DNA of 32,314 nucleotides. Origin: a virus. A program made the position numbers and the translations under genes. Numbering within the stretch: position 1 is the stretch's first letter; each line of letters begins with the position of its first letter. The stretch is from IMG/VR virus record IMGVR_UViG_3300025889_000538, positions 1 to 32,314 of that record; one strand, 5' to 3'. The notes under the pieces are model-generated. The model made no database searches and was not told the origin of the DNA. It saw only the letters and a program-made list of their open reading frames with translations. Shown piece by piece: positions 108 to 32,254 of the stretch.

Positions 108-425
108 TCACCTGGTAGCCCCCCGCCTGCTGTTGCACGATCTGTGAGCTGGAGCGAGAACAGAGTCGAGTTGACCAGGTGACACGTGGTCCGCGGTCCA
201 GGGGTCGTCTGCACGCGCCCCTTCTTTACAGATCCAACATGTGGTCCACGGGCTCGCGTTCCATTGTTGTCTGAGGTGTGCTGAGTTGCGACGGTATGTC
301 GGGTCCTGGTGGTGGGGGCGTGGTGCCCGTCTGGCCATGCGTTGTCGTTCGTTTTTTTGTTTGCATTTCGGGCAGCGGGTGCGGGTGGTGAGGATGCCGC
401 AGTCGAGGCAGGGGCGGGGGCTCAT
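108..425 (-). CDS. HNH endonuclease with N-terminal zinc ribbon
   Basis: This 105-residue protein is likely a phage HNH nuclease that nicks or cuts DNA. The N-terminus carries CLDC and CPKC pairs (about residues 6-21), a zinc ribbon. The C-terminal half has a CWIC pair, then TADHVSP supplying the conserved His of the beta-beta-alpha metal fold, then AHRSCNSRRG, the usual Asn/His end of HNH domains. The ATG at 425 was chosen because it overlaps the upstream stop by four bases (ATGA); the same frame is open further upstream, but that stretch reads as a low-complexity shadow of the primase gene. HNH proteins beside the terminase genes assist packaging in several phages. Here the large terminase is at the other window end, so the link holds only if the genome closes on itself or the ends were adjacent. 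Confidence 0.75.
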   Translation of the reverse strand: MSPRPCLDCGILTTRTRCPKCKQKNERQRMARRAPRPHHQDPTYRRNSAHLRQQWNASPWTTCWICKEGARADDPWTADHVSPGQLDSVLAPAHRSCNSRRGATR

Positions 426-538
426 TGTCCCGCCCGGTTTTTCCAGTTGCAGGCGGGGCAGCGGTTGTGGTGCCCCGGATGGTATTCGGTGCCGCATTGT
501 TCGCATTCGACGAAGACTTCTGGTGTGTCTGGTGTCAT
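422..538 (-). CDS. 38-residue zinc-ribbon protein
   Basis: This tiny gene fits exactly between the primase and HNH genes and overlaps each by four bases (ATGA junctions at 535-538 and 422-425), which implies translational coupling. The product begins MTPDTPEVFV. It has two CxxC pairs, C12/C15 (CEQC) and C27/C30 (CPAC), separated by a His-rich loop (H20, H23, H24), which is a compact zinc ribbon. The function is unknown. Stand-alone zinc ribbons next to primases can bind single-stranded DNA or template, but that is inference. The exact tiling by two overlaps, together with the cysteine pattern, is the main evidence that it is real. Confidence 0.7.
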   Translation of the reverse strand: MTPDTPEVFVECEQCGTEYHPGHHNRCPACNWKNRAGQ

Positions 539-2691
539 GGCCACCATTCTTCCTCGTTGTTGTCTGGGTGTTCCGTTGGCAGCCCTCGGTCCCCATCCCC
601 CCTATAGGGGGGATGGGGTGACCGGGATGGGCCATCCCAAGCCATCCCGTTACCCATCCCGTTTTCGATGTCCTTGTTTTTCAACGGTTTCTGGGGGCGT
701 GCCGTTTTTTGCTGTTCCATCCCGTCTGCGTGTTGGGATGGGCCCATCCCGTTTGACACACGGGATGAAATGTAGTTACGTTTTTGTGTGTCAACCAGGT
801 GTTCGACGGTCTCTGATCGTTTGTGTCTGCGGCGTTGCGCGGCGAACGCGGCGCTGCGAGCTGGCCTGTTCGGCATGTTTCTGATTTCGCGCCACATGGC
901 GTTGAGTCCGAGGTCGGGTTCGATGTTGGCGTTGTCGAGCCAGGTTTCTGCCTGGTTGGTTCCTGGCGGGTCGAGTGGTCGGTCGCTGTTCTCGAATCTG
1001 AGCGGATCGCGGTGTTCGACGAGTTTGACGGTTTCGGGTACCCATCCCATGCGTCGTTTTTTGGCTGCGAGGGTGATGCCGTCGTCGTGTCTGCGGAGTG
1101 CCCAGACGACGTCGACGTCGTCGTTTTTCGCTGATGAGCCGCGTTGTCCTTTGTCGGGGTCTTTCCCTTGGTGGTCGAGTCTGACGCTGGCTCGTCCTGC
1201 TGCTTTGAGTGCTTGCGCGGTCATTCTGTAGAACGCGCGGATGGTGTCGGCTTCGTTTTCGTCGCCTGCGACGGCGCGGCTGAACGTGTCGATGATCACG
1301 AGTTGTGCGTCGACGAGTTCGGCGAGTCGGTTGACGGCGATGCCGCCTTCTGGCGTGTCGCACGCGGGCAGGGTCGGCAGGAGCGCGTAGTGCAGGTATT
1401 CGAGTTCGGTGTTTTCTTCGTCGACGCCCATTTCTCCGAGTCGGTCGGCGAGGTCTGCTGGTGTCATTTCGTAGTCGAGATACAGCACGTGTTTTTGGTC
1501 GCGGCAGGCTGCTAGCGCGAGCGTGAGCGCGAATAATGATTTGCCTGTGCCGCCTGGCGCGTAGATCGCGTGTGCTCGTGCTTCGGCGATGACGGGTTCG
1601 ACGAGCCAGTTTTCGGTGTTGTGATCTGTTTCCCAGAAGGTGCGCCAGTCGAGGAGTTGGTCGACCAGGTTTTGGTCGTACGTGTCGACGTGTCCGGTTG
1701 GTTGTTCGAACGTGTCTGGTGGCGGCAGCAGGTCTTCGAGTTTGGCGGCGTGTTGGTTGTAGATGGTGTCGAGTTGGCGTGCTGCGTCGCTTCGGTTGCC
1801 GTGATGGTAGATGGCGGCGTATAGGCCGAATGCTGAGAGTGCCCATCCGCTGCCGTCTGCGGTGCTGTTTGCTGCTGTGATCCACGTGGACGGTGTTTCG
1901 GTGGTGAACACGACGAGCGGTCCGTCTGGTTCGTGTAGGACGGCTGAGTGGCCGTCTCGCGGGTTTTTCCCTGGTCGTGTCCATAACGTTTCGGTTTGTC
2001 CGGTGCGTGCGATGGTCCAGCCGATTTGTTGTAGTTGGTGATGCCAGTTCCATTCGTGTTGGAACGCGGTCCACATGTGATCGTCACGTTGTGTCATCGT
2101 GGTGTCATGGTGTTGCGGTGTCACTGGTTCGACGAGTTTGTCGAGTAGCCATTCGGGCGCGTCGGCAGGTTGGATGGTCCACGGTTCGCATCCTGGTTTC
2201 CATGTGTATTTGGCGCCGGTGGTCGGGTGGATTGACGGGCACGCGACGATTTGGCCGCCTGCGCCTCTGATGTCGAGTCCTGGTCCGAGCCGGTTACCGG
2301 TCGATTGTTGGTTGCGGATCGTCACGTCAGCTGGCGCGTTGAGGATGATGTGGAGTCCGCCGCCGCCTGTTTCTTGTGTCCAGGTGGCGGGTAGCGGTCC
2401 GTGTTGTTCGACGAGTTGTTTGAGCGTGCTGTAGCCGTCGTGGTCGTGTGTGTCGACGTCGATGGCGAACAGGTTGCGGCCGTCTGGTTGTGGTCCGAGC
2501 GCGAGTCCGATGCCGTGATCTGGCATTTGGTGCCACCACGTGTTGATTTGGTCGTGGTCCACGGTTGCTGCTGTTTGCCAGGACGGGATAGGCGGATGCT
2601 TTTTCCCTGGTGTGATCGGGATGACTCTGATTCCGGCGCCGGTGTACGCGAGCGCATAGTCGAGAGCTGTTTCTGGTGTCATTGTGGTCAT
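535..2691 (-). CDS. Bifunctional prim-pol primase / RepA-like helicase
   Basis: This 718-residue replication protein would prime and unwind phage DNA; no phage DNA polymerase is visible. Residues about 10-180 form an archaeo-eukaryotic primase (prim-pol) domain, with the metal-binding AIDVDTHD (D78, D80) and the GGGGLHIIL strand (H114). Residues about 345-560 form a RecA-fold ATPase, with Walker A APGGTGKS (379-386), YLDYEM near 405 and the Walker B strand VIIDTFSR near 465, as in RepA/AAA_25 helicases. The C-terminal 100 residues are basic, low complexity and probably disordered, and their DNA contains an iteron cluster. The ATG at 2691 overlaps the upstream stop by four bases; ATG 2682 is an alternative. 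Fused prim-pol/helicases are common in phages and plasmids. Confidence 0.9.
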   Translation of the reverse strand: MTTMTPETALDYALAYTGAGIRVIPITPGKKHPPIPSWQTAATVDHDQINTWWHQMPDHGIGLALGPQPDGRNLFAIDVDTHDHDGYSTLKQLVEQHGPLPATWTQETGGGGLHIILNAPADVTIRNQQSTGNRLGPGLDIRGAGGQIVACPSIHPTTGAKYTWKPGCEPWTIQPADAPEWLLDKLVEPVTPQHHDTTMTQRDDHMWTAFQHEWNWHHQLQQIGWTIARTGQTETLWTRPGKNPRDGHSAVLHEPDGPLVVFTTETPSTWITAANSTADGSGWALSAFGLYAAIYHHGNRSDAARQLDTIYNQHAAKLEDLLPPPDTFEQPTGHVDTYDQNLVDQLLDWRTFWETDHNTENWLVEPVIAEARAHAIYAPGGTGKSLFALTLALAACRDQKHVLYLDYEMTPADLADRLGEMGVDEENTELEYLHYALLPTLPACDTPEGGIAVNRLAELVDAQLVIIDTFSRAVAGDENEADTIRAFYRMTAQALKAAGRASVRLDHQGKDPDKGQRGSSAKNDDVDVVWALRRHDDGITLAAKKRRMGWVPETVKLVEHRDPLRFENSDRPLDPPGTNQAETWLDNANIEPDLGLNAMWREIRNMPNRPARSAAFAAQRRRHKRSETVEHLVDTQKRNYISSRVSNGMGPSQHADGMEQQKTARPQKPLKNKDIENGMGNGMAWDGPSRSPHPPYRGDGDRGLPTEHPDNNEEEWWP
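591..767. repeat. Iteron-like repeats and palindromes; candidate replication origin
   Basis: CCATCCCGT occurs as direct copies at 642-650, 654-662, 717-725 and 744-752. Related inverted copies (GGGATG core) lie at 624-630, 735-742 and 760-767. Three palindromes are built from the same core: 12-base arms CCCCATCCCCCC and GGGGGGATGGGG around TATA (591-618), GGGATGG-G-CCATCCC (624-638), and GGGATGGG/CCCATCCC (735-750). T-rich stretches on the plus strand lie between them (661-716). All of it is in the coding sequence of the primase tail (about residues 642-700), as the lambda origin lies within gene O. The repeats are directly visible; the origin role is inference. Confidence 0.55.
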
Positions 2692-3485
2692 GCGAGTTGT
2701 TCTGAGAGCCAGGTTTCGTGGTTGTCTGCGGCGACGACGGGTTGTCCGAGCAGGATGCGACGGCAGCGTTCGCTGGTTTCGTTGATCGGTCGATCGTCAA
2801 ATAGATGTTCGGTGTAGTGGTGTTGGCTGTTGTCTGTGCATGCGACGGCTTGTTCGAAGTCGTGTTCGTACAGGTGCATGCTGCCGATCGTGTGTGTGTA
2901 GGTACCGAGCGCGATGCCGAAGTGTGCGGCTATTGCTGATTGCAGCGTGATGAACTGCACAAGGTCGTACGGCAGTCCGAGCCACACGTCGTTGCTTCTC
3001 ATAACGGTTCTGGCGTGCAGTTTGTTGTTGCGAATCATGTATTGCAGCGCGATGGTGCACGGGATGTCTTTTTTGTCGCGGTTGAGGTCGGTCGCAGAGT
3101 CGTAGATGGTGAGTACTGCTTGTCTGCTGTCGCGATCGCGTTCCAGGAGTTTTACGAGGTCGTCGAGTCGGCCGGAGATCCGGTTGCCGTACGCTCCGTG
3201 AAACGTGCCGTTGTCTGTGTAGTTACGGAACGCGCGTACACGGTCGGTGACGGCTTCTGGCACGCTGATTTGGCCGACAAGTTGGAGAGCTTCGAGCGCG
3301 GAGATCGCGTGGTTGAGCTTGCGTCCGTCGATGTCGATGCGGATGCTTGCCGGGTAGGTGACGGTGAACTGGTGATTGAGCAGTTCACGTGTTTGTTGTC
3401 CGCGCGGTGATGTTTCGGTTCCGTGCATGTACAGATCGTTGATCGTTCCGATGATCGCTTCGCCTGGTGTTTCGTACGTGGTCAT
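2688..3485 (-). CDS. Thymidylate-synthase-family enzyme, probable dCMP hydroxymethylase
   Basis: This 265-residue protein of the ThyA superfamily transfers a one-carbon unit from methylene-tetrahydrofolate to C5 of a pyrimidine nucleotide. The catalytic Cys is C143 in IPCTIALQY. The phosphate-binding region reads MRSND (162-166), as in T4 gp42 dCMP hydroxymethylase, where ThyA typically has QRSCD. The residue that sets base specificity, Asn in ThyA (LPFN), is Asp here (LPYD, D174), the dCMP-type choice. HLYEHD (204-209) matches the HLY motif of ThyA. Prediction: 5-hydroxymethyl-dCMP (or 5-methyl-dCMP) from dCMP. It is coupled to the kinase upstream and the primase downstream by four-base overlaps. 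A plain thymidylate synthase is the alternative, but the residue pattern argues against it. Confidence 0.75.
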   Translation of the reverse strand: MTTYETPGEAIIGTINDLYMHGTETSPRGQQTRELLNHQFTVTYPASIRIDIDGRKLNHAISALEALQLVGQISVPEAVTDRVRAFRNYTDNGTFHGAYGNRISGRLDDLVKLLERDRDSRQAVLTIYDSATDLNRDKKDIPCTIALQYMIRNNKLHARTVMRSNDVWLGLPYDLVQFITLQSAIAAHFGIALGTYTHTIGSMHLYEHDFEQAVACTDNSQHHYTEHLFDDRPINETSERCRRILLGQPVVAADNHETWLSEQLA

Positions 3486-3988
3486 GTGGGCAGTGTTCCT
3501 TGTAGGTCGTCGATTGTCATTACGGGTATGTGTGTCGCTTCGGTTCGTCCGGCGATGTCAACGAATCGTGCTTGTGCCCAAGCGATGCTGGTGAACGTGT
3601 CTTCTTCGCCGCGTTGCGCGAGTGTGCACGCGATCTGGTCCACTGGTCGGGTGACGACGATGATCGCTGCTCCGATTTCTACGAGCATGCGGGTGCATCG
3701 TTCATAGTCGTCCCATTCGTCGAACAGTGACGGTCGGTCGAATACTTCGGGCCAGACGAGTTCTCCGAGGTGCCATCGGTCGCAGATGATCGGTCGATCG
3801 GCGACTACTGGCAGCACGTATTCGTCGAGCCAGTCGTCGTGCACCGGTGCTTCAGCGTGCAGGTATCTGGCGCCGTATGTTGCCGCGTACCGTTTGCAGA
3901 ACGTTGTTTTGCCTGTCGCGTCTGCGCCTTCGACGATGAGGATCGGCGCTGGTGCTTGCGCGGGCGCGAAGCTGGTCATGTCAGCCAT
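3482..3988 (-). CDS. P-loop deoxynucleoside monophosphate kinase
   Basis: This 168-residue P-loop kinase resembles thymidylate kinase and other dNMP kinases. Walker A is EGADATGKTT (about 20-29). A CDRWHLGE stretch follows in the position of the DR(Y/W) motif that contacts the acceptor nucleotide, and VVTRPVDQ follows the Walker B-like strand. It lies between the dCTPase/dUTPase and hydroxymethylase-like genes, so the likely substrate is the modified dNMP (as T4 gp1 phosphorylates hm-dCMP), with dTMP the conventional alternative. The ATG at 3988 was chosen because it has a GAGG 9-10 bases upstream and overlaps the previous stop by eight bases; a longer open frame upstream looks like a shadow. 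ATG 3979 is possible. Confidence 0.75.
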   Translation of the reverse strand: MADMTSFAPAQAPAPILIVEGADATGKTTFCKRYAATYGARYLHAEAPVHDDWLDEYVLPVVADRPIICDRWHLGELVWPEVFDRPSLFDEWDDYERCTRMLVEIGAAIIVVTRPVDQIACTLAQRGEEDTFTSIAWAQARFVDIAGRTEATHIPVMTIDDLQGTLPT

Positions 3989-4400
3989 TGCACGTGTCCT
4001 CGGTGCATGTGACGTCAGGGTCGTCGAGCGCGCGTCCGCAGCTGGCGCATTTGCCGGTGATCCCGTCGTATCCGGCTTGTTGTCTGGCAGCGTTGAGCGC
4101 GTTTTTTTCCAGGTAGCGTCCGGCGATTTCGGTCGGGTTGGCACCGGCGACGAGCATCAGGTTGACGAGGAAGTGCAACGCGTCGATGAGTTCGTTCAGG
4201 TACGCGTCGCGGTTGAAGTGTCGTGACGTGGCCCACGGTTTCCAGCCGGTTTCTGCGAGCGCTTCGTGTAGTTCGTCAGTCAACGCGGTTGTCATGTCGA
4301 CGATGTATCTGCGGCGGTCTTCGCCTTCCAGGGTGGACGGGTCGACTCCGTACGATCTGGTTTGCAGTTCGAGTTGTTTCTCGAAAATCATTGCGAGCAT
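3981..4400 (-). CDS. dCTPase/dUTPase-like (gp56/MazG superfamily) with Cys tail
   Basis: This 139-residue all-alpha NTP pyrophosphatase likely hydrolyses dCTP and/or dUTP to the monophosphate. The first helix motif DELHEAL (E43, E46) and second NELIDALHF (E70, D73) supply the metal ligands. The stretch from ELID to the GY at 110-111 closely parallels T4 gp56 (ELVDIFHF, then KN, N, ARQ and GY), which removes dCTP so that only the modified nucleotide enters DNA. Residues 118-137 add four cysteines (CASC, then C132 and C137), a possible zinc knuckle that I do not know from gp56. The start has a strong ribosome site (AAGGAGACTGCCCC before ATG) and overlaps the deaminase stop by 13 bases. Confidence 0.75.
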   Translation of the reverse strand: MLAMIFEKQLELQTRSYGVDPSTLEGEDRRRYIVDMTTALTDELHEALAETGWKPWATSRHFNRDAYLNELIDALHFLVNLMLVAGANPTEIAGRYLEKNALNAARQQAGYDGITGKCASCGRALDDPDVTCTEDTCNG

Positions 4401-4819
4401 GGGGCAGTCTCCTTGGTCAGTTGGATGCGGAACGTGTCCGCGATTTGGTTGATGTGATTCGCATCATACGTTGCCGCGTCAAGTTCGTGCACATAGTGAA
4501 CTCGAGCGATGCGGTATGCGGCGATTGTTTTCAAGCATTCGTGGCACGGCAGATGGGTGACGGCGAGCAGTCCGCCGGCGGTGTCTGCTGTTGTGCAGTA
4601 TCTGAGCGCGTTCAGTTCGGCGTGCAGCACGTGCGCTCGTCGTTGGTCGCGGTTCGTCCAGTCGATTTCGATTCCTGGTGGCGCACCGTTGTATCCGACT
4701 CCAGCGACACTGTTGTCTGGTCGCAGGATGCACGCGCCGACTTTGAGCCACGGGTCTTCTGATCGCGCGGCTGCTGCTTCAGCTATCGCAAGCGCGTATT
4801 CAGGCCATGACGGTCTCAT
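4388..4819 (-). CDS. Deoxycytidylate (dCMP) deaminase
   Basis: This 143-residue zinc enzyme of the cytidine deaminase superfamily converts dCMP to dUMP. It shows the HAE motif (H66, E68) and PCHEC (91-95), which supply the zinc ligands and the proton-shuttling Glu. VGYNGAPPG near residue 41 is typical of dCMP deaminases. It would supply dUMP for thymidylate while lowering the dC pool, the role of T4 cd. The ATG at 4819 forms an ATGA overlap with the methyltransferase stop; an in-frame ATG at 4843 would add eight residues without a better ribosome site. The length is typical for the family. Confidence 0.85.
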   Translation of the reverse strand: MRPSWPEYALAIAEAAAARSEDPWLKVGACILRPDNSVAGVGYNGAPPGIEIDWTNRDQRRAHVLHAELNALRYCTTADTAGGLLAVTHLPCHECLKTIAAYRIARVHYVHELDAATYDANHINQIADTFRIQLTKETAPCSQ

Positions 4820-5976
4820 AGCGGCAGTCGCTGTTCGAGCCATGTCGGTTGTTTCCTGACGTCGATCACGTATTCGCGGTCTCCGATCTGGTCGCCCTGG
4901 TTGCTGCCTGGTTGTCCGTTCAAGCTGGCGGCTGCCCAGTCAGCGATCCATCGTCCTGACTTGTACGGGATGCCTTTACCGAACCATGCTTGTCCGTTTA
5001 CTCCTGCGTCGACAGCGGGTTGAATTGTCCATCGATCGGGGAGTCCCATGATGCGAGCCGCTTCGCGGTACGTGAAACAGCGAGGCAGCACCGGATGCAC
5101 GTTTTCACTTGACGCGTATTGTCTAAGCACGCGAGCTGGTTTGTCATAGTTCCATCGTCGAGCCGCGTACATCGACGTGCGCGAGTCGACTCCTGGTTTC
5201 TCGTTGTTCCATGTGTCAAGGGTGACACCAGCTGCTTGTGCTCGCAGCCATGCTTCTCCTGCCGGTTCATCCGGCAGCCATTCAGCTTTCGCGGCGAGTT
5301 CAGCGAGTCGTACGGCTCGCGGTGTTGGCGCTACATGGTGACCGTCAACTGATCCGATCGGTTGTTCTTCCAGGTCGCCGATGGCGTCACGTAACGTGAG
5401 CAGTTCAGCGATTTCTGGTTGTTCGATTCCGAACGGGACGGTCGACGCGACAAAGAAGTAGCGGTTGCGTTCTGCGTATCCTCCGAGCGTCAGGTTGTTG
5501 TGCAGGACGTGATGCAGCGTGTATCTGCGTCCGGTGTGGAACTCTAAGTGTTCTCGCAGGTTGCGCATGAGTTCGCGTCCGGACGTGTATGCGCCGGTCA
5601 CGGACTCGAACACGACGATCGCTGGTTCGCACGCTGCCGCATAGTCGATCAGGTTCCACATGCCCTGGTTCGCTGGCGAGTCGATACCTCGGTATCCGAC
5701 GCGTTCTCCGTTCTCGTCGCGTTTGTTGACGCATGTTGATAGCCCGGAGAATCCTGAGCAGGCAGGGTTGCCGAACACGAGATCCGCTGTTTCAGCCTGC
5801 CAGTTGTCCGGTTCGTCTGCTTGAATGTCGGTTGTTTGCAGCAGGTCCAGGTTGCCGACATACATCGGCAACCCGAACCCGGCTGCAGCTTCCCGTTTCG
5901 CAATCAGATCGAAACCTGCGTCTTTGACAGCGAGCGCGAACGTTCCGCCGAACGTTTGGCAGTCGATCGCGCGCAT
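4816..5976 (-). CDS. Diverged C5-cytosine DNA methyltransferase
   Basis: This 386-residue SAM-dependent enzyme would methylate C5 of cytosine in DNA. Motif I is the N-terminal FGGTFALAVKDAGF. The catalytic loop reads FGNPACSGFS (C73) instead of the usual PPCQ. Motif VI is VFESV (Glu present, Asn replaced by Ser), motif VIII is AERNRYFFV, and the C-terminal YREAARIMGLPDRW plus GKGIPYKSGRWIA correspond to motifs IX-X. The target-recognition region is short. Such variant C5 enzymes occur in phages and can start hypermodification when paired with a TET-type oxygenase, but I see no TET gene here. It follows the SSB-like gene by one base and overlaps the deaminase by four, so it sits in the nucleotide-modification operon. 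Confidence 0.8.
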   Translation of the reverse strand: MRAIDCQTFGGTFALAVKDAGFDLIAKREAAAGFGLPMYVGNLDLLQTTDIQADEPDNWQAETADLVFGNPACSGFSGLSTCVNKRDENGERVGYRGIDSPANQGMWNLIDYAAACEPAIVVFESVTGAYTSGRELMRNLREHLEFHTGRRYTLHHVLHNNLTLGGYAERNRYFFVASTVPFGIEQPEIAELLTLRDAIGDLEEQPIGSVDGHHVAPTPRAVRLAELAAKAEWLPDEPAGEAWLRAQAAGVTLDTWNNEKPGVDSRTSMYAARRWNYDKPARVLRQYASSENVHPVLPRCFTYREAARIMGLPDRWTIQPAVDAGVNGQAWFGKGIPYKSGRWIADWAAASLNGQPGSNQGDQIGDREYVIDVRKQPTWLEQRLPL

Positions 5977-9014: not shown

Positions 9015-9349
9015 CAGAGCACCTCGTTGAGTATGGCGACGAACATTTCGCCGGTCATCACGCAATAAAACTTGCCGCCGTCTGTGGTGCCGCGCGGTTT
9101 GATCGCGACACAGCCGTATTCGGCGCCGTCGTTTTCCATCTCGCGTTCGAGTTCACGAAGCCATCCTGGAAGATCAAGCTTCGCTGCTGACTTCACCTCG
9201 ATTACCGTGTTCGGGATCCCGCTGATGTCGCCGCGGTCGTGTTGACCTGTCAGCCGGCGGCGTTCAGCTGGCCATCCTCGTCGTTTCAAGAAGTCGACGA
9301 ACTGGTTTTCACCGGTTCGTCCCTTCGCTTTGATGCTTGCAGAGTTCAT
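9014..9349 (-). CDS. Holliday-junction-resolvase-like PD-(D/E)XK nuclease
   Basis: This 111-residue nuclease contains GRTGENQFVDFLKRRGW (about 10-27), with the conserved Glu of motif I. RGDISGIPNTVIEVKSAAK (about 39-57) is the D...ExK core, D41 and E51-V-K53. This matches small archaeal/phage Hjc-type resolvases and related restriction-fold nucleases. It would process branched replication or packaging intermediates. It is the first gene downstream of the left minus-strand promoter, and the ribosome site AAGGAGACACTGCCC before ATG is the standard initiation cassette of this phage. Confidence 0.75.
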   Translation of the reverse strand: MNSASIKAKGRTGENQFVDFLKRRGWPAERRRLTGQHDRGDISGIPNTVIEVKSAAKLDLPGWLRELEREMENDGAEYGCVAIKPRGTTDGGKFYCVMTGEMFVAILNEVL

Positions 9350-9395
9350 GGGCAGTGTCTCCTTCCGTTCGTCCTGGTTGGCGACGAACTACACC

Positions 9396-9424: not shown

Positions 9425-9456
9425 ATAGGGGGTCCCCCTCTCTTCACATTCGTGGT

Positions 9457-9462
9457 TATAAT
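9457..9462 (+). promoter_or_regulatory. -10 element of a leaderless plus-strand promoter
   Basis: A perfect TATAAT lies in TTCGTGGTTATAATGA, shared base for base with the right plus-strand promoter at 11486-11491. The A of the downstream ATG (9469) is seven bases after the end of the hexamer, where the first transcribed base is expected, so the mRNA would have no leader. No GTGCAA -35 is present: a GGGGG-T-CCCCC palindrome (about 9428-9438) sits in that region instead. Confidence 0.6.
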
Positions 9463-9468
9463 GAAGAC

Positions 9469-9618
9469 ATGACCAACAGCTACACCAAGACAGACACCGA
9501 TCACTTCATCGACGAGATGGTCGCTAGCGCGATCGACCTGCTCGAAAAGGGGAATCTCACTGATGAGCAGCGCGAGTTCGTTGCCAGGATCATCGACAAG
9601 ACACTCGAAGTCTTCTAA
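9469..9618 (+). CDS. 49-residue acidic helical protein, probably leaderless
   Basis: This is the first gene of the left plus-strand operon. The product begins MTNSYTKTDTDHFIDEMV and is acidic and largely helical, with an Asp/Glu-rich middle and a TDEQREFVARIID helix. No Shine-Dalgarno precedes the ATG; the predicted transcription start coincides with it, so it probably uses leaderless initiation, which is frequent in Actinobacteria. No family is recognised. As part of a short divergent operon with its own terminator, it could be an early host-takeover or regulatory protein (inference). Confidence 0.6.
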   Translation: MTNSYTKTDTDHFIDEMVASAIDLLEKGNLTDEQREFVARIIDKTLEVF

Positions 9619-9867: not shown

Positions 9868-9898
9868 AGCGCCCGTGTCCGTCCTGGACACGGGCGCT
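9868..9898. terminator. Bidirectional terminator hairpin, copy 1
   Basis: GCGCCCGTGTCC (9869-9880) and GGACACGGGCGC (9886-9897) form a perfect 12-bp stem with loop GTCCT, extended by an A-T pair. TTT-CTC-ATTT follows on the plus strand. It lies between the convergent stops of the plus gene (9854) and a minus gene (9902). A nearly identical hairpin ends the second plus-strand operon at 12077-12111. Confidence 0.75.
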
Positions 9899-9901
9899 TT
9901 C

Positions 9902-10057
9902 TCATTTCCGTTCAAGCGCACGATCACACGCGTCGACGAGATCTGCGAGCATGGAGCGCGTAAACGCGGCCGCCTTCGCTTCGTCCAACGCTGCGATCAT
10001 CGCGATCGCGACCGCTTTCACCTGCTGCGGACTCGCGTCCTTCGTCGCCAACTTCAT
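9902..10057 (-). CDS. 51-residue helical protein
   Basis: GGGAGG lies six bases before the ATG at 10057. The product begins MKLATKDASPQQVKAVAIAM and is alanine-rich and amphipathic, probably two helices, ending in DACDRALERK. It overlaps most of the 3' half of the zinc-ribbon frame (9924-10157) in another reading frame. The good ribosome site and regular codon use suggest this is the principal product of the overlap. The function is unknown. Confidence 0.6.
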   Translation of the reverse strand: MKLATKDASPQQVKAVAIAMIAALDEAKAAAFTRSMLADLVDACDRALERK

Positions 10058-10701: not shown

Positions 10702-11094
10702 TTACATGTCGACCGTCACGCCGTCAGGCAACGTCAACGAAGGGATGAGCGCGTTGCGGATGTCGGCGATCCACGTGTCACCAGCGAAGTCGGTGATGTC
10801 GTCAACGAGTTGTTGTGTGGCGCTGAGGTTCGCTGCGCCGCATGACACAGTGAACATGATTTCAGGGTGCGCGTCGTAGGTTTCGTCGTCCGGATCGCCG
10901 TACACTCCGATCAGGATGACGTCGTCGTACGAAACCCAGACGCATTCTCCGTTGTCTCCCCACGGGATGATGCGTGCTGTGTGATCGTGGTGTGGTGCTT
11001 CAGCGTTCGGGAACGTGTCGTCGATCCACGCGTTGATGTTCGTGATGTCTTCGCCAGTGTACCTGTACACGTGTTCTGTGGTTGTGGTGTTCAT
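10702..11094 (-). CDS. 130-residue acidic hypothetical protein
   Basis: The product is strongly acidic and beta-rich, with His-containing HHDHTARIIPWG in the N-terminal third and a hydrophobic strand VILIGVYGDPDDE in the middle. It begins MNTTTTEHVYRYTGEDI. No family is recognised. The start is fixed by the standard cassette CCAACCAGGAGACACTGCCC before ATG. It is the second gene behind the right minus-strand promoter and is followed by the 10619-10676 hairpin, so expression may drop after it. Confidence 0.65.
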   Translation of the reverse strand: MNTTTTEHVYRYTGEDITNINAWIDDTFPNAEAPHHDHTARIIPWGDNGECVWVSYDDVILIGVYGDPDDETYDAHPEIMFTVSCGAANLSATQQLVDDITDFAGDTWIADIRNALIPSLTLPDGVTVDM

Positions 11095-11118
11095 GGGCAG
11101 TGTCTCCTGGTTGGTTGA
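11090..11118 (-). repeat. Translation-initiation cassette, copy of a 29-base direct repeat
   Basis: Bases 11090-11118 are identical to 11363-11391. On the minus strand the unit reads TCAACCAACCAGGAGACAC then TGCCCATGAA, so it carries a CAACCAACCA leader, the Shine-Dalgarno AGGAG and the start codon. Shorter versions precede genes at 9349, 4400, 25341 and 21521, and on the plus strand at 11543 and 11770. Confidence 0.7.
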
Positions 11119-11124
11119 TGGATT

Positions 11125-11367
11125 TCAGTAGTTGATTTCGATGATGGTTGCGCCGCTCGCGTTGAGACCGTAACCGCAGTCAGCATTGTTGGTCAGCCAG
11201 CGATGTGCTGCCGCCCTGGTCGCCCACACTTTCGCGTCCGACATGTTCGTGCTCGTGACAACGCAGCAGTGTTCCTGGTTGATTCCGACAACGAACCGAC
11301 TGCCGGCATGGTCGAACAGATCAGTCAAAATCATTATGTACTTCTTGGTCATGTCATTCATCTTCAT
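11125..11367 (-). CDS. 80-residue hypothetical protein
   Basis: This is the first gene of the right minus-strand operon. The product begins MKMNDMTKKYIMILTDLFDH. It has a beta-helix-beta character: a hydrophobic strand, then NQEHCCVVTSTN, then a Trp/Ala helix (AKVWATRAAAHRWLT) and a final strand ATIIEINY. Helix-plus-strand proteins of this size often bind other proteins, but no family is recognised. The start is set by the repeated AGGAGACACTGCCC cassette. Transcription is predicted from 11411. Confidence 0.6.
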   Translation of the reverse strand: MKMNDMTKKYIMILTDLFDHAGSRFVVGINQEHCCVVTSTNMSDAKVWATRAAAHRWLTNNADCGYGLNASGATIIEINY

Positions 11368-11391
11368 GGGCAGTGTCTCCTGGTTGGTTGA
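11363..11391 (-). repeat. Translation-initiation cassette, second copy of the 29-base repeat
   Basis: Identical to 11090-11118. Two genes 270 bases apart thus share exactly the same leader, ribosome site and start context, which suggests either duplication of the 5' region or strong selection for equal, efficient translation. Confidence 0.7.
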
Positions 11392-11467: not shown

Positions 11468-11491
11468 ACTCTTCACGTTCGTGGTTATAAT
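11463..11491 (+). promoter_or_regulatory. Plus-strand promoter of the right divergent pair
   Basis: GTGCAA (11463-11468), 17 bases, TATAAT (11486-11491). The block CTTCACGTTCGTGGTTATAATGA differs from the left plus promoter at only one position over the last 20 bases. Start is expected near 11498, giving a 45-base leader with AGGAG before the ATG at 11543. Confidence 0.65.
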
Positions 11492-11542
11492 GAGGTCACC
11501 AACCAGGGCGAACGCCCACCAACCAACCAGGAGACAACTAAC

Positions 11543-12076: not shown

Positions 12077-12111
12077 GAAGCGCCCGTGTCCGTCCAGGAC
12101 ACGGGCGCTTC
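12077..12111. terminator. Bidirectional terminator hairpin, copy 2
   Basis: GAAGCGCCCGTGTCC (12077-12091) and GGACACGGGCGCTTC (12097-12111) form a perfect 15-bp stem with loop GTCCA. The 12 core bases of each arm are identical to those of the hairpin at 9868-9898. It separates the plus operon ending at 12057 from the minus gene ending at 12190. I see nothing else in the rest of this 132-base gap. Confidence 0.75.
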
Positions 12112-12189
12112 AACATGTCCGTACAAATGTGATGCCGTCCAACCCGACCGGAGGCGAGCCGGGTGGACGACACCACGCAGCAACCTACG

Positions 12190-22568: not shown

Positions 22569-23212
22569 CAGGCGACCTGAACTTGTTCGCGTCTGTACGG
22601 AGCTAGTAGCGCCATAGCTACCGGATGCATTGCTTGCCGGAGTCGCATGATGCCGATGTCGCCGAAGCCGGCGATACCGAGCGGAGCGTCAGCTGACTTG
22701 AAAATCGACACGCCCTGGATTTGCGCTGCCTGTTCGACGGGATGCGGAAGATAGTCGTTGGCTGCATCAGGGTTCGCCCATCCCCATCGCGCGGTGATCT
22801 GCACGAGTGCTTGTCCGTAGTTGAACGGGAACTCGCGAGCGTTGATCGCTCTGATACGTGTGTACGGCCAGTTCTGTCCGCCCAGTTTGCCGTTGAGCGG
22901 TTCGAGTTGATAGTCAGCAGCGTTCCAGGTGGTCTCGAATACGCCGTCGTCGTCTTCGTCGGTTTTGATAATCAAACCAGTCGCTGTCGAAATATCGTCG
23001 ACTTCAACAAGCCACGGTGTCGACGCAACGAACGTTCTTGCCGTAGCGGTCGCTTGTTGCACGAAATGACGATCGCAGTACGCTTGCACCATCTGCGTCG
23101 CAGCGTCTGCAGCGAGGGTGAGACGGTTGTCGTCGGTCGTATCGGCGACGGCGATACCGAGGATTTCTTTCAGATCGTCTTCGGTGACGAGTCGATCAGT
23201 GAGATGCGCCAT
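22568..23212 (-). CDS. Head-tail connector (gp6-like adaptor)
   Basis: This 214-residue protein begins MAHLTDRLVTEDDLKEILGI, a helix typical of gp6-type adaptors. It continues with LAADAATQMVQAYCDRHF and a beta region (YQLEPLNGKL, PYTRIRAINAREFPFNYGQA, ITARWGWANPD) ending in a helix, the pattern of HK97 gp6/SPP1 gp15 adaptor proteins. It begins inside the end of the methyltransferase gene (17-base overlap), and CAGGGA precedes the ATG. A frame opening 12 codons upstream is less likely. Confidence 0.75.
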   Translation of the reverse strand: MAHLTDRLVTEDDLKEILGIAVADTTDDNRLTLAADAATQMVQAYCDRHFVQQATATARTFVASTPWLVEVDDISTATGLIIKTDEDDDGVFETTWNAADYQLEPLNGKLGGQNWPYTRIRAINAREFPFNYGQALVQITARWGWANPDAANDYLPHPVEQAAQIQGVSIFKSADAPLGIAGFGDIGIMRLRQAMHPVAMALLAPYRREQVQVA

Positions 23213-23714
23213 GTTCAGTCCCTGGTTTGTACGCGACGCAGCGCACATCTGCTGGTCGGCGCTGCCGGTCTACAATGTACTCGACGAAGCCTGCCTCTAC
23301 GAGCCAGCTTGTCAACTCGTTCGGATCAATGTTGCCGTAGTATTCTCCGGCTCTGACCGCTCGGCCGTCGATCGCTGAATGAGGTGCTCGTCCTGGTCCT
23401 GCAGCGGTAGCGATAAACATGCCGCCTGGTTCAAGCATGTCGATCGCAGCTATACAGATTTCGCGAGCGTTTTCAGCGTGTTCAAGCATTTCGGTTGTCA
23501 CAACGCAAGCAGCTAACCGGTGCGGTCGGAATAACGCGGCGTCACACACGATGTCGACGTTCGGTCCTGGAACAACATCCACACCGACGTATTCTTCGCA
23601 ATCAAATAAATGTTTGATACCGCCGTTCACATCGCATGATCCGAGTTCGACAACGAGATCGAACTGTTTGCCGGTCACATGATCGCGCACCCAACGTTCT
23701 GCTTGTTCATGCAT
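23196..23714 (-). CDS. Class I SAM-dependent methyltransferase
   Basis: This 172-residue Rossmann-fold methyltransferase has motif I VVELGSCDVNGGIKHLF (about 21-37). GVDVVPGPNVDIVCDA corresponds to the acidic loop and motif II, and the motif IV/V region is TTEMLEHAENAREI and MLEPGGMFIATAAGPGR, the arrangement of methyltransferase-11/-25 type enzymes. The substrate is unknown. It follows two glycosyltransferases in one operon, so it may cap or modify the sugar they add. It overlaps the upstream stop by eight bases. Confidence 0.8.
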   Translation of the reverse strand: MHEQAERWVRDHVTGKQFDLVVELGSCDVNGGIKHLFDCEEYVGVDVVPGPNVDIVCDAALFRPHRLAACVVTTEMLEHAENAREICIAAIDMLEPGGMFIATAAGPGRAPHSAIDGRAVRAGEYYGNIDPNELTSWLVEAGFVEYIVDRQRRPADVRCVAYKPGTEHGASH

Positions 23715-24369
23715 GACGATGTTTCCTTCTCATCCAAAGCTGTTGATCGGCGGTTGATCCTCGTTGCCCCAGCCGATATACGTCGTCATCCGCGCCTTTG
23801 TTCCACAGCGGATGCAAGTGTTCGATGATTGCGTTTTCGGCGTAAACGAACTGGCTTGCTCGTTTAGCTACCATTGTCCATTCGTTGTCGACAAACCAAT
23901 GCGTATAGCCTTCGTGGCAGACAGTTGATGCTCCATCGAATGATGCTCCGTGATTATCGATCCAGGTTCGTCGAATCATCGGATGCGTCGCGTGTAGTCC
24001 GAGCATGACGGCTCGGTTACCGAGATCATTTGTTGACACGAACGAGTATCGATCGCCTGCTGCTTCCAAAGCTGCTTCGCGCCAACCTGGATGAAACATC
24101 ACGTCGTCGCCAATAAACAACAACCAGGGCTCATCTGTTTCCCTGTATCCCAGGTTGCATTTCGTCGCGAACGTTTTCGATTCCGAATAGTTGACGATCA
24201 ACTCGCAGTCCTCGTTGCGCATCACTGCTTCGAGTTCTTGTTCGTCGTCGTAGTCGACAACGAAATAGATGCGAGCTTTCGCTGTGCTCGCTAGCAGCGA
24301 TTCGACTAGCGGGTCAACATTCTGCGGTCGGTTCATGACCGGAACGATGACAGCGACGTCAATCAACAT
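23707..24369 (-). CDS. GT-A family glycosyltransferase 2
   Basis: This 220-residue protein begins MLIDVAVIVPVMNRPQNVDP, the N-terminal nucleotide-binding start of family-2-like glycosyltransferases. LLFIGDDVMFHPGW (about 83-96) carries the acidic GDD in the DxD position that binds the metal and sugar nucleotide. WFVDNEWT and EHLHPLWNKG lie in the acceptor half. ATG 24369 was chosen; the frame also opens at an upstream TTG, but that would lengthen the overlap with the first glycosyltransferase. It probably glycosylates a virion protein or DNA; see the findings. Confidence 0.82.
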   Translation of the reverse strand: MLIDVAVIVPVMNRPQNVDPLVESLLASTAKARIYFVVDYDDEQELEAVMRNEDCELIVNYSESKTFATKCNLGYRETDEPWLLFIGDDVMFHPGWREAALEAAGDRYSFVSTNDLGNRAVMLGLHATHPMIRRTWIDNHGASFDGASTVCHEGYTHWFVDNEWTMVAKRASQFVYAENAIIEHLHPLWNKGADDDVYRLGQRGSTADQQLWMRRKHRHA

Positions 24370-25117
24370 CGATCCGATCCAAGCGGTCGTAGACGCGTTC
24401 GTCAAGCCACAACGATTTCAGGTGACTTGTTTTGATTCCGGTGTGAACGTGAATCGGTATTTCGAGCGCGCTTGCTCTGGTGCACAACGACAGATCTTCG
24501 CTGATCCACGTGTTGATCGAACTGTTGAAAATCGGCGAGTACCAGGTCGGTCCATATTCCGCTTCGATTTTCTGAAACACTGATTTGTGAATCAGAACGA
24601 AAGCTGATCCTGTCGCGGCACAGTTCACGAGTTGGTCTCGCGGATATTCTTTGCTGACGGTGAAACCTTGATGTTCGCCGTTGTCGTACCAGTTGAAGAT
24701 CGTTGGCGCAGGTTGAACGAGCATGCCTCCGATACCGTCGACACCGACTTCACGCATCATGAAACAGAGACCACCAACGATCGGAGCTTTCTCAGGATCG
24801 GCGACTTCCATCAACCGGTCGATTGCGTCTGCTTCGAAACCCATGTCTGTGTCGAGCCACATCAACCAGTCGACACCTGGCATTTTGTGCGTGAACTGTC
24901 GAGCGGTGTCATTGCGAGCGGACACGATGCCGCCTGTCCCGTATTTGGTCGCGAGCCATCCGCCGCCGATCACTCGTTGTTTGTTCGCAACATCGTGCGC
25001 GATCAAAGCCATCAACGAAGCATGCCACGAGTGCGCGACTTCTTGACCGTGAACGTACGCGACGCAAACCTTGTCCGGAGTTTTCTTAGCGAACTCTCCT
25101 GGCTTGTTCTTCGCCAT
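24359..25117 (-). CDS. GT-A family glycosyltransferase 1
   Basis: This 252-residue protein has the motif order of a GT-A glycosyltransferase: YVHGQEVAHSWHASLMALIA near the start, ARNDTARQF, then VDWLMWLDTDMGFEADAIDR (about 82-101) with the DTD at 89-91 that binds metal and sugar nucleotide, then PIVGGLCFMMREVG. The second half has NCAATGSAFVLIHKSVFQKI and SEDLSLCTRA, typical acceptor-side elements. It overlaps the following glycosyltransferase by 11 bases and the preceding gene by one (TGATG). Confidence 0.85.
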   Translation of the reverse strand: MAKNKPGEFAKKTPDKVCVAYVHGQEVAHSWHASLMALIAHDVANKQRVIGGGWLATKYGTGGIVSARNDTARQFTHKMPGVDWLMWLDTDMGFEADAIDRLMEVADPEKAPIVGGLCFMMREVGVDGIGGMLVQPAPTIFNWYDNGEHQGFTVSKEYPRDQLVNCAATGSAFVLIHKSVFQKIEAEYGPTWYSPIFNSSINTWISEDLSLCTRASALEIPIHVHTGIKTSHLKSLWLDERVYDRLDRIDVD

Positions 25118-30736: not shown

Positions 30737-32254
30737 CTAACCAAACGACGCCCACAGCTCTGCTGCAGGTTGAAACTCCGGACGACTGTTCGCCCGGTGA
30801 TACGCGATACACAACGCGACCGCCGCGTCGATCTTCCCGCGACTCTTACCTTTCGACAACGTGAACCCGGTCTCGTTCAACCTAGGAACCGCGTTCAACA
30901 CGTGAGCACCGAACGCAGGATCAGCATCATGCGTAATCTCACCGCGCTTCAACGCTTCAAACGTCGACCCGACAGCAGGCGTCATCCTGGCCAACGACTG
31001 CGGAATCTCAACCATCGGGAAACCTTCATCCAACAACATCTGTGCAGGCAAATCGAAAAACCGCGGGTCGAACGACACTTCACGCAAATCAAACCTGGCG
31101 CCAAGATCGCGAACCGTCTGCATCACATCAGCAACATCAAGACGACCGTCCTCCGTCGGATTCCACACTTTTGCTTGCGCATGCCAACGACCGTCGTCAC
31201 GTTGCTGCACCCAAACGATCGCAGTCGAATCATGCTTCAACGCGACGTCAACACCCACCCAGGTCGGTGCACCATCCACCATCTCGAAGGGATCTTCAAG
31301 CTCGTCCCACACTTTCTTGCCGTCGTCACCCAACCAACACTCGGTGCCCTCATGCCACTGACCAAGACGGAAGATACGGAAATGCGACTCAGGTGACATT
31401 TCGACCGCAGTCACAAGCGCGTTCTCGTTCATAAAACCTTCACCCAAAGCAGGGTTCGCTTTCAACCACTGCTCGCGATCACGCACATCGCACGACTCGT
31501 CCGCCGCATACTCTGTGAACCGGAAACCAGGCGGCAGATTCCCGTGCCGCACCCGTTCACGCATGTTGTACAACGCGTTGCGCTTATCGAACCCTGGCGT
31601 GCCGATACCGACAACCAACGACCGTGGACGCTTACCAGACGCCAACACCATCGACTCCCAACTGTCGACCGGCATGAACCCGATCTCGTCGACAATCCCA
31701 AGCGACATGTCCAAACCTTGCAAACCGTCCGGATCGTTCGACCTCGGAAACATCTCACCATGATTCAACGGCGTCACAATCTTCTGACCGCCGATAGCCG
31801 AATACACAAAACACCTGGACGACAACTCCCAGTTCTCCCGCAACATCGCCAACGCGACCCCGTACACCGACGTCACAGCCTGCTGCACCGTCGTAGCAAC
31901 CACCGGAATCTGCGGAGCACCAGACTCGTCCGGATCAAACAACGCCCACAAACCGAGCGCAGCCAGAAACGTCGACTTGCCGTTACCGCGACCGACAGAC
32001 ATAACAGCCGCCGTCACCTCGTCAGCCAGCACTTCTTCCAACCACTCTTTCTGGTACGCCGCAAGCTTCAACGGTTTGCCAGCGCCGTAACCTTTCGGCG
32101 ACGCGCAATACGTTTCGATGAAACGGATCGCTCGCGCGTGACGAGCTTTCACACGCCACTTCAACCAGGGACCAGGCGAATCGTTCTCAAGCTTCTTGCC
32201 TGCGTTCCTGTTTCCGCGCATCGAAGCGCCGATTTGTTCGTTGCGACTATTCAT
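30737..32254 (-). CDS. Terminase large subunit
   Basis: This 505-residue packaging ATPase-nuclease has Walker A GRGNGKST (about 88-95) and Walker B SLGIVDEIG (about 184-192, with the catalytic Glu). The nuclease domain is marked by VGVDVALKHDST (Asp near 336) and GKIDAAVAL near the C-terminus, giving the acidic metal site. Basic residues at the N-terminus (MNSRNEQIGASMRGNRNAGK) may contact DNA or the small subunit. It cuts concatemeric DNA and pumps it through the portal. No strong Shine-Dalgarno precedes ATG 32254, so translational coupling with the upstream gene is likely. Confidence 0.95.
   Translation of the reverse strand: MNSRNEQIGASMRGNRNAGKKLENDSPGPWLKWRVKARHARAIRFIETYCASPKGYGAGKPLKLAAYQKEWLEEVLADEVTAAVMSVGRGNGKSTFLAALGLWALFDPDESGAPQIPVVATTVQQAVTSVYGVALAMLRENWELSSRCFVYSAIGGQKIVTPLNHGEMFPRSNDPDGLQGLDMSLGIVDEIGFMPVDSWESMVLASGKRPRSLVVGIGTPGFDKRNALYNMRERVRHGNLPPGFRFTEYAADESCDVRDREQWLKANPALGEGFMNENALVTAVEMSPESHFRIFRLGQWHEGTECWLGDDGKKVWDELEDPFEMVDGAPTWVGVDVALKHDSTAIVWVQQRDDGRWHAQAKVWNPTEDGRLDVADVMQTVRDLGARFDLREVSFDPRFFDLPAQMLLDEGFPMVEIPQSLARMTPAVGSTFEALKRGEITHDADPAFGAHVLNAVPRLNETGFTLSKGKSRGKIDAAVALCIAYHRANSRPEFQPAAELWASFG

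Follow-up and report, generated by a model that had tools for sequence, protein, structure and literature searches.

A phage operon predicted to supply 5-hydroxymethylcytosine and its constant C5-methyltransferase-like partner

The stretch of DNA analysed here, hereafter the window (G000), is the virus record IMGVR_UViG_3300025889_000538 of IMG/VR at its full length of 32,314 bases, and within it five minus-strand genes, running head-to-tail from 5976 to 2688 and each overlapping its neighbour, form a cassette that most likely makes modified cytosine. In the reading that we favour, to which we give a probability of roughly 0.6, this operon would make 5-hydroxymethyl-dCMP (hm-dCMP) and clear dCTP, 5-hydroxymethylcytosine (5hmC) would enter the DNA, and a protein resembling C5-cytosine methyltransferases (C5-MTases) would then act on that base. 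The supply pathway is of a known type; the constant C5-MTase-like partner is what is new. Our observations bear on gene content, gene order, motifs, family-wide conservation, and co-occurrence, and from them we infer the substrates, the flux, the modified base in virions, and the whole reaction of the C5-MTase-like protein. The five genes are the following:

4816-5976, minus strand: C5-MTase-like protein, 386 amino acids (aa) (PF00145, 2.6e-12; 87-member alignment; AF2 model; Foldseek)
4388-4843, minus strand: dCMP deaminase, 151 aa (PF00383, 4.6e-18; PHROG 174, 2.5e-37)
3981-4400, minus strand: dUTPase_2-fold pyrophosphatase, 139 aa, with a C-terminal Cys-pair tail (PF08761, 4.4e-13)
3482 to about 3988, minus strand: P-loop nucleotide kinase, thymidylate-kinase-like (PHROG 761, 4.5e-6)
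2688-3485, minus strand: predicted ThyA-family dCMP hydroxymethylase, 265 aa (PF00303, 2.4e-19; MilA; residue tests)

This five-gene cassette is real, and chance is no explanation for it. An initial annotation of the window had described the five coupled genes, with their coordinates and order, as we find them, and its diverged C5-MTase, dCMP deaminase, dUTPase_2, and ThyA families are borne out by Pfam matches well above cut-off, the kinase being the exception among the five. Because a deaminase, an enzyme of the dCTPase/dUTPase fold, a kinase, and a putative dCMP-type hydroxymethylase share one operon, modified cytosine in the phage DNA, as already proposed in that annotation, appears to be the best reading of the operon content. 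The genome size of roughly 32 kb that it gave is not supported by the record, a linear contig without completeness estimate.

The alignment of the synthase places its catalytic cysteine at C143 and a dCMP-type aspartate at D174, the position of N177 in E. coli ThyA, in agreement with the dCMP-type residues claimed initially. Among the 41 aligned family members, 35 share their genome with a C5-MTase-like gene, and Asp occupies the ThyA-177 position in 35/35 of these linked synthases and likewise in T4 gp42, with Asn found there in ThyA, SPO1 gp29, and the Montesquieu enzyme; Asp at this position has been linked to modified-cytosine contigs in the MetaGPA study (PMC8670742). The best solved relative is MilA, a CMP 5-hydroxymethylase (2.1e-25; 5jnh), which shares with the window enzyme the cytosine-type Asp and, as predicted for the latter, folate-dependent hydroxymethyl transfer. 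The fold search concurs, and we take this match as no more than supporting evidence because the confidence of the AF2 model is low (63.3). The ribose preference of MilA is due to Ala176 and Lys133 (PMC5175136), against which the window synthase has S164 and R121, of deoxyribose type, and the folate-site residues D166 and G170 are kept both in the window and in 35/35 linked enzymes. Given D174, C143, S164/R121, and D166/G170, the best call for this protein is a folate-dependent dCMP hydroxymethylase.

The C5-MTase-like protein was modelled with a pLDDT of 91.5, and its best Foldseek match is M.HaeIII (2.1e-16), CmoX (8yf3) being also among its fold matches. The window protein has P71-x-C73 (motif IV), E124 (motif VI), and R170/R172 (motif VIII). 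In its family, 87/87 members conserve the PC motif, the Glu of motif VI, and the RxR of motif VIII; the family also retains motif IX and, in most members, the G/A-rich loop of motif I. The fold and these motif IV, VI, VIII, and IX features are shared with M.HaeIII, M.HhaI, and Dnmt1, whereas the Phe and first Gly of motif I, the ENV Asn, and the GNxV Asn of those enzymes are replaced family-wide: of the 86 members with letters in that part of motif I, none has the Phe and none the first Gly, the ENV Asn is found in 0/87, the motif reading E-S/C-V in 87/87, and the motif X GN has become GK in 84/84, the Lys of the window protein being K334 (codon at about 4975-4977). In the window protein, the motif I and motif II signatures for S-adenosylmethionine (AdoMet) are altered. 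Judged from these sequences, it looks as though the base chemistry has been kept and the AdoMet site selectively changed, and the predicted substrate of the protein is hydroxymethylcytosine in DNA.

Nor is this protein the oddity of a single phage that it had initially been taken for, as it belongs to a phage family that is widespread, has the changed cofactor site, and goes together with dCMP-type enzymes. The family counts 87 members, all from phages in these searches, and 52 contig loci that are non-redundant at 85% identity. With the C5-MTase-like protein as a single query, a search of viral contigs gave no match, unlike the later alignment-based search, which recovered the family in 80 contigs. 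Among named phages, 15 records of the collection carry it: Gordonia phages account for 13 of these, and DSL-LC01 and Kurnik for the other two. One more match, MT836482, is weak and was rejected because it reads as a canonical C5-MTase. A genome scan for bacterial homologues, a weak test with one single pattern, found none, and our literature search found no description of the family nor of modified DNA in these phages.

Of the 51 non-redundant loci that could be tested, 47 have a same-strand dUTPase_2 gene no more than 2.5 kb upstream of the C5-MTase-like gene; at L030, L032, and L033, the dUTPase_2 gene lies 3-6 kb away, within the cassette, and L104 is without it. Of 26 contigs of at least 34 kb that bear the C5-MTase-like gene, 23 encode the synthase, the comparison rate being 1730/50,697 phage records with any detectable synthase relative, and Sixama, Forza, GodonK, GMA2, DSL-LC01, and Kurnik all carry it. 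The association of the two genes is strong, and we attach no probability to it because the contigs are related to one another. By its distribution, the C5-MTase-like protein appears as a hallmark of the cassette rather than an add-on.

The phylogeny of this constant partner also bears on the product of the synthase. In the C5-MTase-like tree, the window groups with L030, L032, and L033 in a single clade (support 100/99), within which L033 nests with L030 and L032 (99/97). The synthases of L030 and L032 are of the window type (48-49%), and that of L033 is a T4-type gp42, with 52% identity to T4 gp42 and 31% to the window enzyme; elsewhere in the tree, Micrococcus phage Kurnik has a T4-type synthase too (51%). 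This suggests that synthase lineages have been exchanged around the constant C5-MTase-like partner with hm-dCMP as their common product, the interchange with T4-type gp42 supporting the sameness of that product.

The deaminase translation contains both zinc motifs, HAE and PCHEC, and the dUTPase_2 metal motif ExxE...ExxD is found, in translation and alignment, as E43xxE46 and E70xxD73. T4 gp56 falls in the same Pfam family (PF08761), and we know of no residue that tells dCTP from dUTP specificity among dUTPase_2 and gp56 enzymes. As for the kinase, its Walker A motif is GADATGKT and its family matches are weak (PHROG 761, "thymidylate kinase", 4.5e-6). It is weakly similar to the synthase-adjacent kinases of DSL-LC01, Forza, and Kurnik, and a protein search of named phages with it gave no match. 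The dNMP kinase of the initial annotation thus survives as a P-loop protein resembling thymidylate kinases, but not as a relative of T4 gp1, which matches PF21448 at 3e-107 where the window kinase has no match, nor with its start at 4144: the gene likely starts near 3988, the open frame 3482-4144 overstating it.

Established T4 biochemistry provides the model for the supply steps. Like the T4 pathway (gp56, Cd, gp42, and gp1), the window has a dUTPase_2-family pyrophosphatase, a dCMP deaminase, a ThyA-family enzyme with Asp, and a nucleotide kinase; unlike in T4, the synthase is of another lineage, the kinase is not gp1-like, the five genes sit in a single operon, a C5-MTase-like partner is present, which T4 lacks, and no T4-type glucosyltransferase is seen in the window. 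In the sense of T4 genes, the label "T4-like" is not supported, the synthase having 31% identity to gp42 over 108 aa and MilA as its closest solved relative and the kinase falling outside PF21448; a T4 origin of the cassette was rejected on this low identity and on the kinase. The window synthase is closer to the enzymes of DSL-LC01, L030, and L032 than to gp42.

In the proposed pathway, the dUTPase_2-fold enzyme would cleave dCTP (and dUTP) down to the monophosphates, the ThyA-family enzyme would transfer a hydroxymethyl group from methylene-tetrahydrofolate onto dCMP, the deaminase would turn leftover dCMP into dUMP, and the kinase would begin the phosphorylation toward hm-dCTP for replication. 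After replication, the C5-MTase-like protein would flip the modified base, form an adduct between Cys73 and C6, and hold the ring through Glu124 and Arg170/172, with the invariant Lys334 placed beside the C5 substituent, which the protein would change; in many relatives, sugar enzymes would act afterwards. Tentatively, this change may need no AdoMet: with the Cys at C6, a Lys-aided loss of hydroxide from hydroxymethylcytosine would leave a C5-methylene open to a new nucleophile, such as the hydroxyl of a sugar, a thiol, or an amine. A covalent complex with 5hmC DNA has been reported for M.MpeI, and the hydroxymethyl group is apparently removed by that enzyme (PMC11347137).

Several points weigh against a hydroxymethylcytosine pathway completed by this protein. 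Within the synthase superfamily, Asp also occurs in 5-hydroxylases and dCMP methylases, and dUTPase_2-kinase pairs without a synthase exist, as in Microbacterium phage Armstrong. Three of the 26 long contigs have no synthase match, although they are possibly fragments, and no glycosyltransferase adjoins the window operon. The AdoMet site may be altered and still bind AdoMet, and enzymes of the M.MpeI type normally act on unmodified cytosine.

A first alternative, which we hold unlikely, is that the hydroxymethylcytosine supply is right and the C5-MTase-like protein is still an AdoMet methyltransferase, acting on residual unmodified cytosine of the phage or on host DNA. The retained fold, motifs IV, VI, VIII, and IX, and the largely preserved G/A-rich loop of motif I would be expected of such an enzyme, but not the replacement of the motif I Phe and first Gly in 86/86 members, of the ENV Asn in 87/87, and of the motif X Asn by Lys in 84/84, nor the tight link to dCMP-type enzymes.

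The family could also use carboxy-S-adenosylmethionine (carboxy-SAM) or another acidic AdoMet analogue to yield carboxymethylcytosine, like CmoX of phage S-B43. We considered this route because the invariant Lys334 matches the position of CmoX Arg350 (Asn304 in M.HhaI) and of the N374K substitution in M.MpeI; the engineered M.MpeI N374K accepts carboxy-SAM (PMC12783734), and CmoX, with its C5-MTase fold and its basic residue in place of the motif X Asn, is among the fold matches. However, CmoX has Arg, an SPPC motif, the adenosine-binding Phe and Glu, and a CmoA partner, whereas the family has Lys, NPPC or CPPC (NPAC in the window), and changed adenosine residues, and the carboxy-SAM synthase CmoA (TIGR00740) was found in 0/27 records, the E. 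coli control being positive. In hydroxymethylated DNA, moreover, C5 would already be occupied, and the carboxy-SAM route is set aside as less likely, with only a slim chance in our estimate.

About as improbable is a synthase acting as a dCMP 5-hydroxylase, with DNA bearing 5-hydroxycytosine derivatives as in the arabinosyl-hydroxycytosine phages. The dCMP 5-hydroxylases do belong to the thymidylate synthase superfamily (PMC13390438), and AfhB of phage HY126 (9iqu, 9iqc), a close solved relative, shares with the window enzyme the dCMP Asp and the PC motif; yet AfhB (9iqu) has Asn and Val where the window synthase and 35/35 linked enzymes have the folate-site Asp166 and Gly170, and the interchange with T4-type gp42 further disfavours a hydroxylase. 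For a route to hydroxymethylcytosine through a C5-MTase and a TET/JBP dioxygenase, PF12851 matched 0/27 records, with the control genomes giving no match either. Last, that these genes only manage dNTP pools, supplying dTTP and clearing dUTP for unmodified DNA, is hardly credible: phages commonly carry dCMP deaminase and dUTPase_2 genes, and dUTPase_2-kinase pairs can stand without a synthase, but in each linked genome the synthase carries Asp instead of Asn, this Asp is tied to modified-cytosine contigs (PMC8670742), and the C5-MTase-like protein, a constant partner, contributes nothing to dTTP supply.

Around the cassettes of relatives, sugar enzymes are frequent. Glycosyltransferase-like neighbours are present in the named phages and in 24/46 contigs with enough upstream sequence; the DSL-LC01 neighbourhood also holds an annotated UDP-galactopyranose mutase, and some of the remaining loci have an epimerase, a nucleotidyltransferase, or an RGP-family protein nearby. 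PF03214, the UDP-arabinopyranose-mutase family, was rejected as a constant partner, occurring in 2/26 only. In Bacillus phage G, gp301 is a distant C5-MTase-like relative (1.4e-24) without the motif X Lys (stretches L145/L146, gp301-gp309), while gp306 of this phage is annotated as an alpha-glucosyltransferase and gp319 is a synthase of the Asp type (stretch L144, gp317-gp319); together, they hint at glucosylated hydroxymethylcytosine there too. Two further features of the window touch on replication and sugars:

535-2691, minus strand: Prim-Pol/RepA-like helicase fusion (PF09250, 8e-40; AAA_25, 1.5e-21)
23707-25117, minus strand: two candidate GT2-like glycosyltransferases in the structural module (PF00535, 1.1e-8 for 23707-24405)

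The synthase gene overlaps the Prim-Pol/helicase gene by ATGA, and the latter, in the same overlapping array, would be the replication gene that copies the modified DNA; in L032, its equivalent overlaps the C5-MTase-like gene, not the synthase gene. No DNA polymerase gene was seen in the window, whose replication gene is this fusion. The two GT2-like proteins, absent from the initial annotation, stand with a class-I methyltransferase-like protein at 23196-25117 (minus strand) within the structural module, and a homologue of the one at 24359-25117 is found in the 36 kb relative G001; these proteins could decorate virion proteins or DNA.

Elsewhere in the window, a 30-bp element with a perfect TATAAT (CTCTTCACATTCGTGGTTATAATGA...) occurs at 9440-9469 and 11469-11498 (90% identity) before small plus-strand genes, and both groups of these genes are followed by near-identical long GC-rich, terminator-like hairpins (AGCGCCCGTGTCC...GGACACGGGCGCT) at 9868-9915 and 12079-12126. 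A recurring 29-nt leader with a strong ribosome-binding site (9345-9373, 11090-11118, and 11363-11391; reverse strand CAACCAACCAGGAGACACTGCCCATGAA) stands at the starts of small minus-strand genes. Searches of the window for RNA families and tRNAs found none. An HNH-like gene (108-635, minus strand) lies at one end and the terminase large subunit (30737-32254, minus strand) at the other, no small terminase gene having been identified in the window; such ends are consistent with a genome that was opened between these two genes, so that the contig may be close to complete.

If the favoured reading is true, it assigns to an unseen step of phage DNA hypermodification an enzyme family that can be tested, and the AdoMet-free chemistry, if true, would serve many phages as a general second step in hypermodifying cytosine. 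As several relatives are cultured, the reading is directly testable: modified cytosine would be predicted in cultured phages of Gordonia, such as Sixama, GodonK, and GMA2, and of Micrococcus, such as Kurnik, where the genes labelled "thymidylate synthase" and "methyltransferase" have passed as routine annotations. Taking "DNA methylase" labels in these phages at face value may lead predictions on restriction and defence astray, and a base-flipping catalyst that edits hydroxymethylcytosine in DNA would be useful for 5hmC chemistry.

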